Assembly: GCA_030615625.1 (NCBI GenBank)
Contig: JAUWYX010000001.1
Coordinates: 124,001 to 188,000 of the forward strand
DNA length: 64,000 nucleotides
Direction of reading: 5' to 3'
Source of the DNA: Dehalococcoidia bacterium
GTDB lineage: Bacteria > Chloroflexota > Dehalococcoidia > GIF9 > AB-539-J10
The notes below the pieces were generated by a model. That model saw only the letters and a program-made list of their open reading frames with translations. It searched no databases and had not been told where the DNA came from. The translations under genes were made by a program, and so were the position numbers. This document shows positions 41,697 through 50,289 of the stretch, piece after piece; within the stretch, counting starts at the first letter, position 1; each line of letters begins with the position of its first letter.

Positions 41697-43403
41697 TCAC
41701 GGCTCCGCTAGCTCCTGGAGAACTGCTAACACATCCTGCCGAGGCACATCACTACGAATTACTGCTTTGCCGATATCTTGTAACAGTACCCAGCGAATTG
41801 CCTTTCCTCTCATTTTTTTATCCAGTTCCATGGCTCTAGTTATCCCGGCAAGGCTCAACTTGAGATTGCTTCGCTTCACTCGCAATGACGTGGGTAAGCC
41901 CAATGCCCGTAATAGGGCTTGCTGGCGCTCCACCGCCGCTGAAGGCAAAAGACCTAATCGCTGACTGAGCTTAGTCGCTCCCACCATGCCAATGGCTACC
42001 GCTTCTCCATGAAGGAATCGCTTATATTGTGTAGCAGCCTCTAATCCATGAGCAATGGTATGCCCATAATTTAAGATGGTGCGTTTCCCTTCCCTTTCTT
42101 TTTCATCCTGGCTGACGACCTGAGCCTTGATAGCAGCGCTGCGGGCAATAGCTCGGGTGAGCGCCTCCGGCTCTAGCTTTGACAGCCTATTAACATTGCT
42201 CTCCAGGAATTGAACAAATTCCTCATCAAGAATCATGCCATGCTTAATAACTTCAGCCCAGCCTGAGGTCAGCTCACGCTGAGGCAGAGTGGCAAGAGTC
42301 TGACAGTCAGCCAAAACCAGGTTAGGCTGATAGAAGGCACCAATAAGGTTTTTTCCTTCAGGATGATTAACCCCGACCTTACCCCCGATGCTGGCATCAA
42401 CCATGGCTACCAAACTGGTCGGCACTTGTACCCAGGGCATACCCCGTAAGAAGGTGGCAGCGACAAAGCCCGCCAAGTCGCCTACCATACCGCCACCCAG
42501 GGCGATGATAATATCGTCTCGCTCCGCTCGATGCTCGACAAGGAAATCGTAAATCTTGATAGCGTAGTCCATGCTTTTCGTTTCTTCACCCGGCGGCACT
42601 ACAAAGGAATTAACAGCAAAGCCAGCGTCCTTGAGGACTCCCTCAACTTTGCTGCCGTAAAGAGAGAAGACATTCTCGTCGCTAACTATGGTGAATGTGC
42701 CAGATAGAGCAGTTTGCTTCATCTTCTCACCGAGTTTGTCCAATAAACCATAGCCAACAAAGACAGGATAACTTTGAGTCGCAGTCTCTACCAAGCAAGC
42801 GATGTCCTTGTCAATGTCACTCCGAGCCTTTTCCCTGTCATTGTGAGGAGCGTAGCGACGAAGCAATCTCGAAACCCTTATTACCTCCTCTGCTACCTGG
42901 CTGATGTTTAAATTGTCAGTATGAACCGTCCAGTCAACATTAGCATAGTAAGGCTGCCGGGAGGCTTTAAGCTCTCTGATGCGTTCCAAAGGGTTATCAT
43001 TAGCTAAAAGGGGGCGAACTTCGGTCTCAGGACTGTAAGCAGCCTCACGAAATAAGCGCTCACAGATTGTCTCAGGTTTAGCCTCCAGGCAAACAATTAA
43101 CCCAGTTTTGGCAAGCAACTCATAGTTTTGCGGGTCGACTATGGCACCGCCGCCGATAGCTATGACCGTCTGCCTTTGCTGGCAAGCTTTTCTAATCGTC
43201 TCGCGTTCCAGTTCCCTGAACCTGCCCTCCCCATCCTGACGAAAAATCTCGGCGATAGGCTTGCCAGTCTGTATAACTATCTCATCATCGGTATCAAGAA
43301 AATCCCAATTTAATCCCCGGGCTACCTCTTTAACCACCAGAGATTTACCGGTGCCTGAGAAACCTGTAATAATGAGATTGGTTATTCGCCTGTCCAATTT
43401 CAT
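41697..43403 (-). CDS. aroKB: Shikimate kinase / 3-dehydroquinate synthase fusion
   Basis: The first 175 residues are shikimate kinase (Walker A GFSGTGKS near 14-21, DTDDEI and GGGAIVD), and residues 205-568 are 3-dehydroquinate synthase (GGGMVGDLAGFVAATFLRG, NAD- and metal-binding motifs, HGEAVAIGM). They catalyse two steps of the shikimate pathway, which continues with aroE and aroC near 51-54 kb. The linker RLLRRYAPHNDREKARS (about 179-195) and a C-terminal RVKRSNLKL segment are encoded by palindromic repeats inserted in frame. Confidence 0.92.
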   Translation of the reverse strand: MKLDRRITNLIITGFSGTGKSLVVKEVARGLNWDFLDTDDEIVIQTGKPIAEIFRQDGEGRFRELERETIRKACQQRQTVIAIGGGAIVDPQNYELLAKTGLIVCLEAKPETICERLFREAAYSPETEVRPLLANDNPLERIRELKASRQPYYANVDWTVHTDNLNISQVAEEVIRVSRLLRRYAPHNDREKARSDIDKDIACLVETATQSYPVFVGYGLLDKLGEKMKQTALSGTFTIVSDENVFSLYGSKVEGVLKDAGFAVNSFVVPPGEETKSMDYAIKIYDFLVEHRAERDDIIIALGGGMVGDLAGFVAATFLRGMPWVQVPTSLVAMVDASIGGKVGVNHPEGKNLIGAFYQPNLVLADCQTLATLPQRELTSGWAEVIKHGMILDEEFVQFLESNVNRLSKLEPEALTRAIARSAAIKAQVVSQDEKEREGKRTILNYGHTIAHGLEAATQYKRFLHGEAVAIGMVGATKLSQRLGLLPSAAVERQQALLRALGLPTSLRVKRSNLKLSLAGITRAMELDKKMRGKAIRWVLLQDIGKAVIRSDVPRQDVLAVLQELAEP

Positions 43404-43486
43404 CTAGTTACCTTCGTCAGTATATTGAAAAATCCAGATTAGAGCAAGAATTAGTTTTGTACGAGACTGATTGCCAATTACCCTGT

Positions 43487-43565
43487 GTCATTGCGAGTCC
43501 CGATTTATCGGGACGAAGCAATCTCGTGGAGGCGCATGGGATTGCCACGCTTCGTTCGCAATGAC
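43487..43565. repeat. Full palindromic repeat with GTCATTGCGA ends
   Basis: Perfect terminal inverted repeats GTCATTGCGA and TCGCAATGAC enclose 79 bases, with an inner TCCCGATTTATCGGGA palindrome and GCAATCTC/GGGATTGC arms. Partial ends follow to about 43612. It is one of the most complete copies of the family that also invades coding sequences here. Confidence 0.75.
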
Positions 43566-43836
43566 GAGGGGTGAAGGGTTCAGAATGACAGGAAATGAAG
43601 GGCTCGCAATGACGATTCAACCTGCTAAATGACTCAATTTACCAGCGATTTTCCCCGTGGTGTCAACTTATGACATATTGTGTGCATTCGGCTTACGACT
43701 AACTGAACTGGTTAGCGAGTATGTTTCAACCATTCGCAGAAGTCACTTGACTATTCTGTGGCAACAGGGCATATTGAAATGGAAAGTACTAACATAACCC
43801 GTCCGACGTCATCTGCCTGGTCAGCTGATAACCCTA

Positions 43837-43865
43837 TTGACAAATTTCCAGAGGCAAGTTATCAT
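43837..43865 (+). promoter_or_regulatory. Promoter candidate for the peptide transporter operon
   Basis: TTGACA and TATCAT are separated by 17 bases. The transcript start would be about 400 bases before the binding-protein gene, leaving a long leader that contains the purine-rich segments. Confidence 0.5.
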
Positions 43866-44277
43866 GCAAGTTCAGGGTAAGTGCACCTAACCGTAACACG
43901 TGTCTTTGCCTGAAAAAGAGCGAGTTTTGCGTTTGTGAGATTGCTATGGTGAATTCGTATCGGAGCCAGTGCCCGGCATCTCTCAGCCAGGTTCGCTGGC
44001 TTCTTACAGATGCGGATGAAATTGTGAAAAAGTCTCGAGAGAACGCTTTACAGGCTTACTTAACAAGATTTTAACATAAATAGCGTAATATAGCACTATA
44101 AAAACTAGTGAAAGGAGGTGAGGACGAGTTACTTTACAAAGGAGAGCTTATTTAAGATAGCAAAGCCAAAATATGAAAGCATAAATGAAAGGGGGTGATA
44201 AGGTAAAGAATATACGATAGAAAAAGGTTAAAAAGGTGATGCAGTTTTGAAAAGTTTTAGAAAGGAGGAGAAATAAT

Positions 44278-46044
44278 TTGAAAAAAGTACTTTTTATCTC
44301 ATTAGCGGTGATACTGGCTCTTAGCGTGAGCCTCATCGGCTGTGGAGGAGATGGAGAACTACCCAGTATCTATATCGGCAGTGGTGCACTTGACGGTGAC
44401 GGTATCCCGGTGGACTTCTTCACTGATGAAGACGTGCGCAAGGGTTTCTGCTATGCCTTTGACTATGATACTTACATTGCCGATGCTCTGCAGGGCCAGG
44501 GTGTGCAGAGGGGCTCGCCGGTCGTTGAAGGACTTTACGGCTACGATCCTGATGCGCCGATGTATAGCTATAACGTGACAAAGGCTGAGACACACTTGAA
44601 GCTCGCCTGGAACGGCACGGTCTGGGAGAAGGGATTCAAATTCACCCTGCTCTACAACGTGGGTAACCTGCCGCGTAAGACCGCCTGTGAGATACTGGCT
44701 AAGAACCTGTACTCGATCAATGACAAATTCCAGGTCAGTATCCTTGCGCTGGCGTGGCCCACTATACTGGCCAAAATGTACGGCACTCGAGATATGCCCA
44801 TGTTCCAGGTAGGCTGGATGCCCGACTACCCCCACGCCGATAATTTCATCGTTCCCTTCATGCACAGCCAGGGTACCTTCTCTGGGTGGCAAGGCTACGG
44901 CTATACTGAACTCGACGACATGATCACGGCAGCATTCCAGGATACCAATCCCGTGACGCAACAAGCCAAGTACGATGCAATACAGCAGCGTTACTACGAC
45001 GATGCCCCTGGCATCGTGCTGGCCCAGCCGATAGCGAGGCGCTACTTCACCGAGCATATAGATGGTTTCTATTACAACCCCTGTGAATCTTCTTATGCCG
45101 GGCGCCTCTTAGACATGAGCAAGTCGGAAGTGGGGGGAGTACCGTACAAGAACGATGGTATCTTTGTCTTTGAGACCATCGGAGATATCACCTCCCTTGA
45201 CCCAGCCTGGATATACGACACAGCTAGCGGTATGCAGGTGGGTCTAATCAATGAGCAGCTCTTGTACTATGACGGCAACTCGACCGAAGTCTTTCAACCC
45301 TTGCTGGCTACCAATTGGTCATTCAACGCAGGAACTCTCGAATATCGCTTCACTATCCGTTCAGGCGTCCAGTTCAGCAATGGTAACAACCTGACCCCCG
45401 CAGATGTGGAATACACCTTCGAGCGGGCGATGTGCCAGGACAGACCGGCTGGACCTATCTGGATGTACTACCAGGCGCTGCTAGGTGCAGATGTGTGGGG
45501 TTACGAAGACACCACTTTTGCAGCTATTGATGCTGCCGTTGAAGTTGACGGCAATGACGTAGTGTTTACACTGTCGGGTGCTTACTGGGAGATGCCATTC
45601 ACACAGATTCTGTGCGGCCAATGGGCCGGCATTGTCGACTATGAATATTGTCAGTCTATAAACGATTGGGACGGCACTGAAGGAGACGTTGCCAGTTTCT
45701 TGCACCCTGCCGAGCCTGGTGACATCCCCCTCTACGAGGTGCCGATTGGTACCGGACCGTGGAAACTGAACACGTGGACGAAGGGCATTCAGGTCATATT
45801 GTATGAAAACACTACCTACTGGGGTGGCTCAGTCCCGTTTAATCAGGTCATCACCAAGGTGGTAGAGGAATGGAGTAGCCGAAAGCTATCACTCCTTGCC
45901 GGGGATGCCGACCTTGTCTATGTGCCGGCGACTAGATTTGACGAGATGGACGAGGAGGCGGGCCTCAACGTCTACCAAGACCTGCCTTCGCTCTCCGTTG
46001 ATGCATTCTTCTTCAATATGATTATCGGAGGACCCTCAAGCTAA
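44278..46044 (+). CDS. Peptide ABC transporter binding lipoprotein, apparently circularly permuted
   Basis: A lipoprotein signal (lipobox LIGC, Cys22) is followed not by the N-terminal lobe of a family 5 binding protein but by what is normally its C-terminal half: FFTDEDVRKGFCYAFDYDTY to DGFYYNP and a natural-looking end LLDMSKS (about 275-283). Then comes what is normally the first half: ETIGDITSLDPAWIYD, NEQLLYYDGNS, EYRFTIRSGVQFSNGN, GTGPWKLNTWTKG, ending DAFFFNMIIGGPSS. The end would naturally continue into the start. TTG 44278 follows AAAGGAGGAG. It may be a true permutation, a tandem-copy remnant or an assembly error. Confidence 0.8.
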   Translation: MKKVLFISLAVILALSVSLIGCGGDGELPSIYIGSGALDGDGIPVDFFTDEDVRKGFCYAFDYDTYIADALQGQGVQRGSPVVEGLYGYDPDAPMYSYNVTKAETHLKLAWNGTVWEKGFKFTLLYNVGNLPRKTACEILAKNLYSINDKFQVSILALAWPTILAKMYGTRDMPMFQVGWMPDYPHADNFIVPFMHSQGTFSGWQGYGYTELDDMITAAFQDTNPVTQQAKYDAIQQRYYDDAPGIVLAQPIARRYFTEHIDGFYYNPCESSYAGRLLDMSKSEVGGVPYKNDGIFVFETIGDITSLDPAWIYDTASGMQVGLINEQLLYYDGNSTEVFQPLLATNWSFNAGTLEYRFTIRSGVQFSNGNNLTPADVEYTFERAMCQDRPAGPIWMYYQALLGADVWGYEDTTFAAIDAAVEVDGNDVVFTLSGAYWEMPFTQILCGQWAGIVDYEYCQSINDWDGTEGDVASFLHPAEPGDIPLYEVPIGTGPWKLNTWTKGIQVILYENTTYWGGSVPFNQVITKVVEEWSSRKLSLLAGDADLVYVPATRFDEMDEEAGLNVYQDLPSLSVDAFFFNMIIGGPSS

Positions 46045-46090
46045 GAGTGATGTTTCAAGGCTCCTAGTGAGCTTGGTGAAACAAGTCAGG

Positions 46091-46116
46091 AAACCCCCGC
46101 TTGCAAGCGGGGGTTT
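46091..46116. terminator. Perfect palindromic hairpin between binding protein and permease
   Basis: AAACCCCCGCTTG pairs with CAAGCGGGGGTTT in a 26-base perfect palindrome. It may be a partial terminator or mRNA-stabilising hairpin that makes the binding protein more abundant than the membrane components, as is common for such operons. Confidence 0.75.
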
Positions 46117-46138
46117 CTTCGTGGTATAAAGGTGTGAT

Positions 46139-47185
46139 TTGGAACTCAGGTCTTATATTATCCGGCGCCTGCTTTTTCTTATCCCGGTGCTGTTCGGGGT
46201 GACCATCTTCATCTTCGGCATTACGATGCTGTTTTCCCCGATAGAGCGGGCATCTCTTTATGTCACCGACGCCAGGCAGATGACCAATATACCGCAGCTC
46301 ATCGAGACTTACGGTCTTGACCAGCCGTTCTGGGTACAATACGGCAACTGGATTAGCGAGGTATTCAGTGGTAATCTGGGCTGGTCAAGAGTGGTGGGGA
46401 TGCCTGTTGGGGACGCTATCTGGGCTTTTCTGCCGGCTACCCTGGAACTGTCAATATTCGCCACACCGATTATCATTTTGATGGGCATCTTCCTCGGTAC
46501 CAAAGCCGCCGCCCACAAAGACAGGCCGCTTGACCATGGGACACGGGTAATGGCCATCTTCGGATGGTCACTGCCCACTTTCTGGCTGGGGTTAATACTG
46601 ATGATGGTTTTCTACGGCTACTTCACCGGCCTCCTGCCACCCAGCCGGCTGAGTATCCCGATGGAACTGGTGGTCAACTCCGCCTCGTTTATCCGTTACA
46701 CTCATATCAACACTATTGACGCTATACTCAATCTTAAGGGAGCGGTCTTTCTGGACGCCTTAAGACATCTTATCTTGCCGGTCATCACCCTTTCGGTGAC
46801 CCAGGTGGCCTTTATTATGAGGCTTATGCGCTCCAGCATGCTGGAGTCTCTGGGTAAGGGATATATTCTCACCGCCAGGGCCAAGGGGCTTTCTGAAAGG
46901 GTGGTGGTCAACAAGCACGCCCGCCGCAATGCCCTCATCCCGGTGATAACCGTAGCCGGTTATGTGTTTGCTGGCATGGTGAACGGTGTCGTTATTACCG
47001 AGACCATCTTCACCTATAAAGGACTCGGCTGGTGGGCCTGGCAATCTGCAGTGCGTCTGGACATAGCATCGGTCCTGGGCTTTGCGCTCTTTAATTCCGT
47101 CTTGTTTGTGCTAGTCAACCTGGTCGTTGATATACTCTACACCCGCGTTGACCCTCGAGTGAGGTTGGGAGGAGTAATGCAGTGA
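46139..47185 (+). CDS. Peptide ABC transporter permease (DppB/OppB type)
   Basis: Six membrane helices are seen, the first in IIRRLLFLIPVLFGVTIFIF. The cytoplasmic EAA-like loop (TARAKGLSERVVVNKHARRN) docks the ATPase. Start TTG 46139 has AAAGGTG upstream. Its stop overlaps the start of the second permease by four bases. It should form the translocation pore with the next gene product. Confidence 0.92.
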   Translation: MELRSYIIRRLLFLIPVLFGVTIFIFGITMLFSPIERASLYVTDARQMTNIPQLIETYGLDQPFWVQYGNWISEVFSGNLGWSRVVGMPVGDAIWAFLPATLELSIFATPIIILMGIFLGTKAAAHKDRPLDHGTRVMAIFGWSLPTFWLGLILMMVFYGYFTGLLPPSRLSIPMELVVNSASFIRYTHINTIDAILNLKGAVFLDALRHLILPVITLSVTQVAFIMRLMRSSMLESLGKGYILTARAKGLSERVVVNKHARRNALIPVITVAGYVFAGMVNGVVITETIFTYKGLGWWAWQSAVRLDIASVLGFALFNSVLFVLVNLVVDILYTRVDPRVRLGGVMQ

Positions 47186-48069
47186 GCGACTGGAAATTCA
47201 TGGCACGGCAGCTAGTTAAGAACCCGCTTTCGCTGGCTGGAATCATAATCATCTCTATCTTTGTCATCATTGCTATCTTCGCTCCCCTTATAGCCCCACC
47301 GCCTGAGGGCCATCTGGATCACTATATGATACCCCGCGACGGTTACTCGGCGACACCAAAACTTCCCAGCGAGGAGCATATCTTTGGCACCACCGAGGGG
47401 CAGTACGATATTTTCTACGGTGTTATCTGGGGCACCCGCTCGGCATTTCGCGTGGGCCTAGTGGTGATTGGTATCGTGCTTGTCACAGGGATTTTACTGG
47501 GCAGCCTGGCTGGCTACTTCGGTGGGATTATCGACGAGGTTATCATGCGCATCACCGATATCTTCCTGGCCTTCCCAGCTCTCATTCTGGCCATGGCAAT
47601 CGTTGCTGCCCTAGGGCCCAGCCTGAGGAGCGTTATGATCGCTCTTACCGTGGTTTCGTGGCCTTCCTATGCGCGGCTGATCCGCGGCGACATACTACAG
47701 GTGCGCGAGGAGGATTACATCGAGGCTTCTCGCGGCATCGGCGCCTCAAACTTCAGGGTTATAATGCGCCATGCGCTGCCCAACGCCATCTACCCCACCC
47801 TTGTCATGGCTTCACTGGACATAGGGGCGGTGGTCCTGACAGCGGCAGCACTGAGCTTTCTGGGCCTGGGCGCCCCTGAAGGCTACGCCGACTGGGGGCA
47901 ACTGACTTCATTCGCCCGCAACTGGATCGTAGGGCCATCGAGTGACCCGTTGAGGTACTGGTTCGCAGTGACCATTCCCGGCCTGTTCATCCTCTTCTTT
48001 GTGCTGGGCTGGAATCTCCTTGGTGATGCCTTCAGGGATATTCTTGATCCCAGGTTGGCGAGGCGCTAG
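47182..48069 (+). CDS. Peptide ABC transporter permease (DppC/OppC type)
   Basis: The N-terminal helix, an extracytoplasmic loop and five further membrane helices fit DppC. The EAA-like loop reads EASRGIGASNFRVIMRHALP. Start is GTG in a four-base overlap with the previous gene. The length of 295 is standard. Confidence 0.92.
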   Translation: MSDWKFMARQLVKNPLSLAGIIIISIFVIIAIFAPLIAPPPEGHLDHYMIPRDGYSATPKLPSEEHIFGTTEGQYDIFYGVIWGTRSAFRVGLVVIGIVLVTGILLGSLAGYFGGIIDEVIMRITDIFLAFPALILAMAIVAALGPSLRSVMIALTVVSWPSYARLIRGDILQVREEDYIEASRGIGASNFRVIMRHALPNAIYPTLVMASLDIGAVVLTAAALSFLGLGAPEGYADWGQLTSFARNWIVGPSSDPLRYWFAVTIPGLFILFFVLGWNLLGDAFRDILDPRLARR

Positions 48070-49227
48070 ATGGGAAACCTTATCAGGATAAGAGACCTCA
48101 CGGTCAGGTTCTACACTTATGAAGGTGTTGTCCACGCCATTGATGACCTGGACCTGGACATCAGGCAGGGGGAAACACTGGGGATAGTGGGTGAAACCGG
48201 TTCGGGAAAGACGATGACCGCCCTGGCCATCCTTCGCCTTATCCCCTACCCCGGCAGGATAGAATCGGGCAGCATCGTCTTCTTTGACAGAGATCTCCAC
48301 AGCGAAATCGAGCTGCTGAAATTGAGCGAGGATAAGATGAGGTCTATCCGCGGCAACAAGATATCCATGGTCTTCCAGGAGCCGGGGGCTGCTTTAAACC
48401 CTGTATATACCATCGGTGATCAAATCTCCGAAGTCTTCTTGCTTCACCAGCGCCGTGAATTGGGTAAGCGGGCAAATAAACAAGTAGATAGGTTGCTCAG
48501 AGATGGAGACGGCCTTGCCGCTAGCATCAAGAGGCCCTTCTGGCACTGGCAGAAGAGGCTCTACAACAAGATAGCTCAGGAATCTAATCCCTTTGAGCCG
48601 CGCTTCTTGAGCCATGTCCCATTGTTCAGGCGGCTTCTCTGGCGGCTAAAAAATGAGTCCAAATTGCTGACGGTTGATATGTTGAAAGATGTGGAAATCC
48701 CCGACGCGGCCCGTGTAGCCGTTCACTACCCTCACGAACTCTCGGGGGGTATGAAACAACGGGCGGTCATTGCCATGGCACTTGCCTGCTCTCCGGAGCT
48801 TCTCATCGCCGACGAGCCGACTACCTCACTTGATGTCACTATTCAAGCTCAGATGCTGGAACTCTTCCGGCGCATTAAAGTGGAAAAGGGAGCCTCTGTT
48901 CTTTTTATCACCCATAACCTGGGAGTGGCATCCGAAGTCTGTGACCGTGTGGCAGTTATGTACGCCGGAAGTCTATGCGAAGTGGCCAGCGTTGAGGAGC
49001 TATTCCTCCACCCATCACATCCTTATACCAAGGCTTTACTCGATTCTGTTCCTATGCCCGGGAAGGAACTGCAGACCATCCCCGGGGCGCTGGCTGACCC
49101 ATTGAACCCGCCGTCGGGTTGTCGCTTTCATCCGCGGTGCCCAAGCGCCACGCCGGTATGCCAGCAAGAGAAAGCCAAACTTAAAGAGATTAGCAAAGAC
49201 CATATGGTCGCCTGTCATCTTTTCTAG
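48070..49227 (+). CDS. Peptide ABC transporter ATPase (DppD/OppD type)
   Basis: Walker A (GETGSGKT), signature LSGGMKQRAVIAMAL, Walker B (LLIADEPTTSLDV) and the family C-terminal motif GCRFHPRCPSATPVC, with Cys residues that may bind an iron-sulfur cluster, are present. A 60-residue insertion (about 135-200) between the Q loop and the signature is longer than usual. The ATG directly follows the permease stop. Confidence 0.93.
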   Translation: MGNLIRIRDLTVRFYTYEGVVHAIDDLDLDIRQGETLGIVGETGSGKTMTALAILRLIPYPGRIESGSIVFFDRDLHSEIELLKLSEDKMRSIRGNKISMVFQEPGAALNPVYTIGDQISEVFLLHQRRELGKRANKQVDRLLRDGDGLAASIKRPFWHWQKRLYNKIAQESNPFEPRFLSHVPLFRRLLWRLKNESKLLTVDMLKDVEIPDAARVAVHYPHELSGGMKQRAVIAMALACSPELLIADEPTTSLDVTIQAQMLELFRRIKVEKGASVLFITHNLGVASEVCDRVAVMYAGSLCEVASVEELFLHPSHPYTKALLDSVPMPGKELQTIPGALADPLNPPSGCRFHPRCPSATPVCQQEKAKLKEISKDHMVACHLF

Positions 49228-49242
49228 TCTAAGATTTAATCT

Positions 49243-50289
49243 ATGAACACATTAATTGATATCAGGAAACTGAAGAAACACTTCCCGATAGTCGGTGGTG
49301 TTCTTAGAAGACCAGTAGGAATGGTCAAAGCGGTGGACGGTGTCAGCCTGACGATTAAGCGGGGGCAGTGGCTGGGGCTGGTCGGCGAATCGGGCTGCGG
49401 CAAGACCACGCTTGCCAAGACAGCTGTCCGTCTCCTGAAACCAACCAGTGGAAATATCTATTTTGATGTTCCCGATGAGGTGAAGGCGGAGATAGAAGAA
49501 TTGCAGTCGCTGGGCAGGAACAATAGTAAATTGAATTCTCTTCTAAAAGAGAATGATCTAGCGACCTTTTCCGGTAGCAGGGTCCGCTTATTTCGTCGCC
49601 GTGCCCAGCTTGTCCACCAGGACCCATTTACCTCACTTGATCCGCGGATGAAGATAAAAAATATAGTTGCTGAGCCACTGACGATACACCGGGTCCTTTC
49701 TGGCCAGGCACGGGAGACGGCGGTCAAGGAGCTGTTACAGACGGTTGGGTTGAGCGCGGGGCAATTGAACCGCTATCCCCACCAGTTTAGCGGCGGTCAG
49801 CGCCAGCGCATTGCTATTGCTCGTGCCCTGGCTATGAAACCAGAATTTATTGCCTTTGACGAACCGACCTCTGCTCTTGACGTCTCCGTCCAGGCACAGA
49901 TCCTCAACCTTCTGAAGGAGCTCAAAAGTGAGTTTGGCCTTACTTATCTCTACATCACCCATGAACTTTTGATTGCCGAGAGTGTCTGCGATTATATCGC
50001 CGTGATGTACCTGGGTAAGGTGGTGGAGATGGGAAAGCCTGAGGAAATATTTCATACGCCACGTCATCCCTATTCACAGTCATTGGTCGCGGCAACGCCA
50101 GTCCCTGACCCTAAGAGAAGAGTCGGTCGCATTGTACTTCCTGGTGAAGTGCCCAGTCCAGCCAATCCACCACCTGGCTGTACCTTTCACCCCAGGTGTT
50201 CCCGGGCCAGCCAAGAGTGCCGTGAACTTTCACCAGCGCTCGAGCTTGTTGGCAACGACCATTACGTTGCCTGCTTTCATCCTCTGTAG
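49243..50289 (+). CDS. Peptide ABC transporter ATPase (DppF/OppF type)
   Basis: Walker A (GESGCGKTTLAK), Q loop (VHQDPFTSLDP), signature FSGGQRQRIAIARAL and Walker B (FIAFDEPTSALDV) are all intact. The C-terminal GCTFHPRCSRASQEC is typical of the oligopeptide group. An insertion of about 45 residues (about 70-115) separates Walker A from the Q loop. It ends the operon; no clear terminator follows. Confidence 0.93.
   Translation: MNTLIDIRKLKKHFPIVGGVLRRPVGMVKAVDGVSLTIKRGQWLGLVGESGCGKTTLAKTAVRLLKPTSGNIYFDVPDEVKAEIEELQSLGRNNSKLNSLLKENDLATFSGSRVRLFRRRAQLVHQDPFTSLDPRMKIKNIVAEPLTIHRVLSGQARETAVKELLQTVGLSAGQLNRYPHQFSGGQRQRIAIARALAMKPEFIAFDEPTSALDVSVQAQILNLLKELKSEFGLTYLYITHELLIAESVCDYIAVMYLGKVVEMGKPEEIFHTPRHPYSQSLVAATPVPDPKRRVGRIVLPGEVPSPANPPPGCTFHPRCSRASQECRELSPALELVGNDHYVACFHPL

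Follow-up and report, generated by a model that had tools for sequence, protein, structure and literature searches.

The gene at positions 44278 to 46044 of the DNA analysed here (64,000 nucleotides of Dehalococcoidia bacterium, GenBank assembly GCA_030615625.1, contig JAUWYX010000001.1, positions 124,001 to 188,000 of the forward strand; hereafter the window) encodes a family 5 solute-binding lipoprotein whose two halves stand in swapped order. Judged from its sequence, the gene is a genuine circular permutation. We are quite confident in the explanation as a whole, that is, in a permuted, two-lobed binding lipoprotein of the Opp/Dpp type with repeated origins. The parts of the gene are as follows:

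44278..46044, forward strand: circularly permuted family 5 solute-binding lipoprotein of 588 residues with a TTG start (one open reading frame; Pfam; matches to OppA/DppA chains)
44278..44343, forward strand: lipoprotein signal peptide with lipobox LIGC and Cys22 (from the sequence)
44365..45129, forward strand: former C-terminal half, residues ~30-284, domain III and the last strands of domain I (alignments to PDB chains and to relatives)
45127..45150, forward strand: in-frame joint of the old C-terminus (..DMSKS) to the old mature N-terminus (VGGVPYKNDG..)
45148..46041, forward strand: former N-terminal half, residues ~291-588, domain I, domain II and domain I again (alignments, model match)

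A good ribosome-binding site lies upstream of the TTG codon at 44278, and the reading frame of 588 residues is uninterrupted. The positively charged start, the hydrophobic stretch and the LIGC motif form a predicted signal for export and lipidation. The Pfam profile SBP_bac_5 (PF00496) matched the protein in two stretches (E 7e-62, 210 bits, cut-off 32.4). When PDB chains were compared by phmmer, residues 46-273 of the query corresponded to residues 276-511 of AppA and residues 286-570 to its residues 15-263; for H. pylori DppA, residues 275-552 corresponded to 11-271 and residues 47-253 to 304-505. The same rotation was seen against relatives with the usual order of halves: residues 136-444 of L020 matched query residues 288-588 and its residues 443-697 matched 30-283, as was also the case for L003, L021, L022, L037 and further usual-order relatives. 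In these proteins, the equivalent of window residue 30 comes directly after that of residue 588, and the halves overlap by 1-2 residues in most of them. By these alignments the rotation is exact to about 2 residues in the closest relatives, far beyond chance.

The usual-order relatives end in MSKSxS* and begin their mature chain with GG..IPYKN, just behind the lipid-bearing cysteine. Both parts of the window protein match one and the same relative in reversed order and without loss, the old termini are fused in frame and the new termini lie within one loop, as is expected of a circular permutant. The linear order of SBP_bac_5 (N-lobe, domain III, C-terminal strands) is violated; since the C-half (30-284) lies ahead of the N-half (291-588), we file the protein as a permuted variant and not as a standard member. 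An initial annotation, made by a model from the letters and their reading frames, had claimed a normal lipoprotein signal, swapped halves at about residues 31-283 and 284-588, a smooth run of the final residues into residue 31 and a frame-preserving junction near 45127. All of this held, the limits being right within a few residues. The alignment to OppA/DppA that it had proposed recovered both halves in swapped order, and the structure prediction likewise proposed gave a second half matching OppA residues 1-274.

In OppA, domain I comprises residues 1-44, 169-270 and 487-517, domain II residues 45-168 and domain III residues 271-486. AlphaFold models were compared by sequential structure aligners, by which the whole permuted fold can be judged by halves only; the alignment used for prediction was a subset of sequences from which misplaced fragments were left out. 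Residues 278-575 of the permuted model matched OppA 1-274 (1ola) with Z 23.0, and matches of the second half spanned Z 23-25. The chain was therefore opened just after OppA residue 274, which by the above domain limits we take to be the crossover from domain I to domain III. Among the structure matches listed, none spanned the first half of the permuted model together with the second, and all were family 5 proteins; for the first half, the support comes from its sequence match to OppA/DppA-type chains. The model of the usual-order protein from the syntenic locus described below matched whole OppA/DppA chains (Z 32-36) with a predicted local distance difference score (pLDDT) of 86.0 and a predicted template modelling score (pTM) of 0.84, whereas the permuted model reached 75.8 and 0.73.

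In the permuted protein, the old C-terminus and the old mature N-terminus, which both lie in domain I, are fused in frame, and the chain would have been opened in the crossover loop from domain I to domain III, with the signal peptide now ahead of domain III. As modelled, the permuted chain would run III, I, II, I and would take on the two-lobed shape typical of OppA/DppA. Each lobe would then be unbroken (domain III, then I-II-I), a single crossover would connect them where the usual form has two, and the lipid anchor would be shifted from domain I to domain III.

The window genome is a draft in 19 contigs, and the contigs with the related permuted loci of genomes G084 and G030 are short. We therefore considered whether parts of an ordinary gene, or of tandem copies, had been misjoined or misbinned in this metagenome-assembled genome. 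The chance of this is practically negligible. G084 (Dehalococcoidales bacterium CSMAG_1597) carries a gene, L008, that is permuted over query residues 2-588 at 76% identity, with identical order and joint over the whole protein, and is followed by dppB and dppC as in the window. A second G084 copy (L099, G084:C126), whose contig starts inside the gene, crosses the joint DMSKSDNG..FIFETIGEIDSLDPAW, has the same end and is followed by dppB. Eleven genes of other families are likewise permuted, and the frame is intact across both joints. An assembly join, named beforehand as a way in which the permutation could prove false, is excluded by the identical order and joint in another metagenome-assembled genome. 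The other such way, a full-length usual-order copy adjacent to the gene, was not found in the window genome; the nearest relative there lies on another contig (42-46% identity), and usual-order genes at the orthologous locus belong to other genomes. A further candidate in G030 (G030:C153, L100:3183-3968), whose 3' end coincides exactly with the opening loop ahead of dppB and whose 5' part is off the contig, is probably permuted but unproven as such, and it falls outside the window clade in the permease tree (approximately unbiased test, p-AU 0.04).

The surroundings of the gene allowed a comparison of the locus between genomes. They comprise:

41697..43403, reverse strand: aroK-aroB fusion, the syntenic anchor (same place in G011, 86% identical, and G001, 80%)
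44059..44277, forward strand: leader (DNA comparison with the G011 locus and other lipoprotein genes)
46088..46118, forward strand: strong hairpin rich in G+C, located between the gene for the binding protein and dppB (RNAfold)
46139..47185, forward strand: dppB-like permease (open reading frame, identity)
47182..48069, forward strand: dppC-like permease (open reading frame, locus comparison)
48070..49227, forward strand: dppD-like ATPase (open reading frame, locus comparison)
49243..50289, forward strand: dppF-like ATPase (open reading frame, locus comparison)

The gene for the binding protein is the first of a dppBCDF operon next to aroKB, the expected DppB, DppC, DppD and DppF all being encoded alongside. 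In G011 and G001, which belong to the same genus, a divergent aroKB is followed by a binding-protein gene in the usual order and by dppB, dppC, dppD and dppF. The syntenic gene of G011 (L102:8276-10066, reverse strand) encodes a protein with 53% and 48% identity to the two halves of the window protein; it shares locus and family with the window gene but differs in half order, leader and signal peptide. On this comparison, the window locus and its usual-order counterparts in the same genus form a before/after pair. The window dppB is 91, 81 and 81% identical to the dppB genes beside L098, L099 and L100, respectively; its identity to the dppB of L102, where the order is usual, is 79%. A transfer of the permuted operon between taxonomic orders is probable, because dppB is 91% identical in G084, which is placed in a different order from the window genome, while the only aroB-like match in G084 is just 46% identical. 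On the placement of G084, a genome listed as sharing only the class, G241, recurs with identical coordinates as G563 within the order to which G084 belongs. For positions 46040-46140, RNAfold gave -38.8 kcal/mol (z -4.2), and L100 has a similar palindrome at the matching position; we read the hairpin as a putative processing or attenuation signal. An intergenic element resembling an inverted repeat (TCATTGCGAG...CGCAATGA) was seen at 43487-43570 and recurs, in opposite orientation, between the orthologous genes of L102.

The DNA upstream of the window gene can be aligned with that of G011, where the locus has the usual order, as far as about position 44077. From about 44059 onwards, leader and signal peptide (44059-44344) share 70-72% DNA identity with their counterparts in other lipoprotein genes (G000:C3:33833-34049, L108). 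The signal peptide resembles those of other lipoproteins of the genus, unlike the L008 signal and that of the usual-order operon. Since the L008 signal differs and the synonymous divergence (dS) between the window gene and L008 is 0.84 in the signal region against 0.27 across the gene, the exchange of the leader is probably younger than the permutation. The leader also contains several Shine-Dalgarno-like repeats (AAAGGAGGTGA, AAAGGGGGTGA and AAAGGAGGAGA).

The permutation is not confined to these genomes. A query spanning the joint was run over 400 genomes of the phylum Chloroflexota, and the class of the new matches was then searched. Distant proteins were found to cross the joint as well, with 36-42% identity over it. 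Eleven further genes were permuted, eight of them opened in the same loop and three at a different point:

Same loop, first set: L135/L133 (G895), L136 (G803), L137 (G857), L138 (G900, 3' end off contig)
Same loop, class search: L141 (G1264), L143 (G913), L144 (G1147), L146 (G981)
Other opening: L148 (G1144), L155 (G1087), L150 (G1108, 5' end off contig)

The last three were opened inside the former N-half, so that they read N-half part, C-half, rest of the N-half, and end in ..GGWDGTC(N/S)*. Many genomes of the second class retain the usual order, and two genes taken at first to cross the joint (L124 and L125) are in fact in the usual order. A single clade of permuted genes was rejected in the tree of the N-half (p-AU 2e-40) and in that of the C-half (p-AU 3.5e-8). 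The same-loop cases were rejected as one clade on joined halves (64 rows, p 5e-5), and within the second class L144 and L146 were split by usual-order genes from L133, L136, L137, L141 and L143 (one clade rejected, p 9e-64); for all of these tests the groups were named after the matches had been seen, and long branches occur. With the same-loop groups split and a further group opened in another loop, the trees point to at least three, and probably four, independent permutation origins in the family.

One ancient permutation, followed by gene conversion or reversion that gives a polyphyletic look, would be an improbable alternative. A similar short linker (SK-xxx-A-KNP) is found at most second-class joints, even across different opening loops, and SKDKxAKNPDTF is common to the other-break group and one same-loop pair. 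One-clade tests, however, fail on each half and on the joined halves, and the joint of the window clade has a different length and sequence. The usual-order sisters L188, L183 and L173 keep an opening loop of the outgroup type (EGGNP-type) and therefore do not look like revertants. We lean towards a reading in which the family 5 proteins of Chloroflexota are a hot spot of natural permutation, with at least four independent openings: three in the same interlobe crossover loop (the window clade; L144/L146; L133/L136/L137/L141/L143) and one near the border of domains II and I (L148/L155).

As to the mechanism, the duplication model (PMC3320104) fits best. Two directly adjacent usual-order family 5 genes, 80% identical, are present in G1179 (L187:3-3905) and are the starting state that is expected for permutation by duplication. 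No duplication intermediate was found for the window gene. The initial annotation had deduced a circular permutation through tandem duplication; the permutation stands, and the tandem origin is plausible, although the flanks of the window gene hold no remnant of it; adjacent duplicates are present in the related genome G1179. An origin from halves once encoded separately, through fission and fusion in place of duplication, fusion and truncation, is unlikely but deserves consideration: the window locus lacks a tandem remnant, and leader and signal are of different origin from the ancestral operon leader. Separately encoded halves were, however, not seen, whereas adjacent duplicates do exist in G1179. 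A chimera of halves from different paralogues is not supported, as one half groups with the same relatives as the other. In L101:6796-8895, a relative of usual order that has no permease genes beside it, about 75 extra repeat-like residues (YSLTISSTEGGSLTTPGEGTF..) lie between signal and binding domain, and a stretch similar to this insert was seen in an unrelated open reading frame of L121.

The window gene likely encodes a working peptide-binding lipoprotein with ordinary oligopeptide capture, to go by its conserved positions and its operon. Among 61 columns conserved in the usual-order rows, permuted proteins retain 55-61 (55 in the window protein), the median of usual-order proteins being 60, and the permuted genes sit with dppB and dppC. 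Ligand, probably an oligopeptide, would be captured for the adjoining DppBCDF pump. Between the window gene and L008, nonsynonymous divergence (dN) is 0.17 versus a dS of 0.27; in the other permuted groups dN is 0.08-0.21 versus a dS of 0.99-1.7, values that indicate strong purifying selection outside the window clade.

Several observations weigh against our interpretation. Closure of the fold was assessed by halves, the aligners being sequential, and, as its lower pTM indicates, the model of the permuted protein carries less certainty than that of the usual-order protein. The fold and predicted binding of the window protein rest on sequence and models. No remnant of a lost duplicate was found in the flanks (43404-44360 and 46030-46150), apart from the signal-peptide similarity. 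An impression of several origins could also be created by gene conversion between permuted paralogues and those of usual order. Finally, dN/dS is about 0.6 for the window gene against L008, compared with 0.24 for dppB, which may reflect adaptation or weak constraint. This ratio, together with the variation of signal and leader among permuted members, could also be taken for a rearranged gene on its way to loss. We find such decay very unlikely in view of the full-length reading frame, the lipoprotein signal, the intact operon and the conserved columns, of the purifying selection in the other groups and of an operon that seems to have moved between orders. The analysis establishes the order of the halves, its conservation, the synteny, the repeated origin in the trees and the retention of conserved residues; fold closure, the ligand, the consequences for hinge and anchor and the origin by duplication, fusion and truncation are what we infer from the data.

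With OppA/DppA-type proteins (SBP_bac_5, PF00496, cluster C) the window protein shares both halves, the conserved residues, the lipoprotein signal and a dppBCDF-type operon; it differs in the swapped halves, in new termini at the crossover of domains I and III and in an anchor on domain III. Natural circular permutation is already known, even for a binding protein. Tp0684/TpMglB-2 of Treponema pallidum ('Type Ic/cluster Bc') is a naturally permuted, lipid-anchored ABC binding protein that binds ligand and changes conformation, which shows that permutation need not keep a binding protein from binding and closing; its cluster B sugar-binding fold has three usual crossovers, to which the permutation adds a fourth (PMC4990184). 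TpMglB-2 thus gains a crossover whereas the window protein loses one of two, and family and cut site differ. For DNA methyltransferases and swaposin, permutation by duplication has been described by a model with intermediates (reviewed in PMC3320104); natural permutation is shared, but these families are unrelated and none is a binding protein. Neither a permuted protein of the OppA/DppA class nor repeated permutation with two cut sites within one binding-protein family was found in the publications searched, which is weak evidence of absence as subscription journals and preprints were thinly covered.

As a rule, a known natural circular permutant represents one old event, recognised by structure comparison. 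In the present case, one locus offers before/after pairs, and a single family shows several separate events, with two different cut sites that fall at domain borders or close to them. As a warning, such proteins are reported by linear profiles and by sequential structure aligners as two partial matches. Such a hot spot would point either to duplication as a recurring route or to a selective advantage of having unbroken lobes and the lipid anchor in a new place. The system permits direct tests of why the lobes of binding proteins interleave, of the importance of the second hinge crossover and of the way in which permutations come about. All in all, the repeated re-cutting of this family, usually at one joint, is a natural experiment in protein rewiring.
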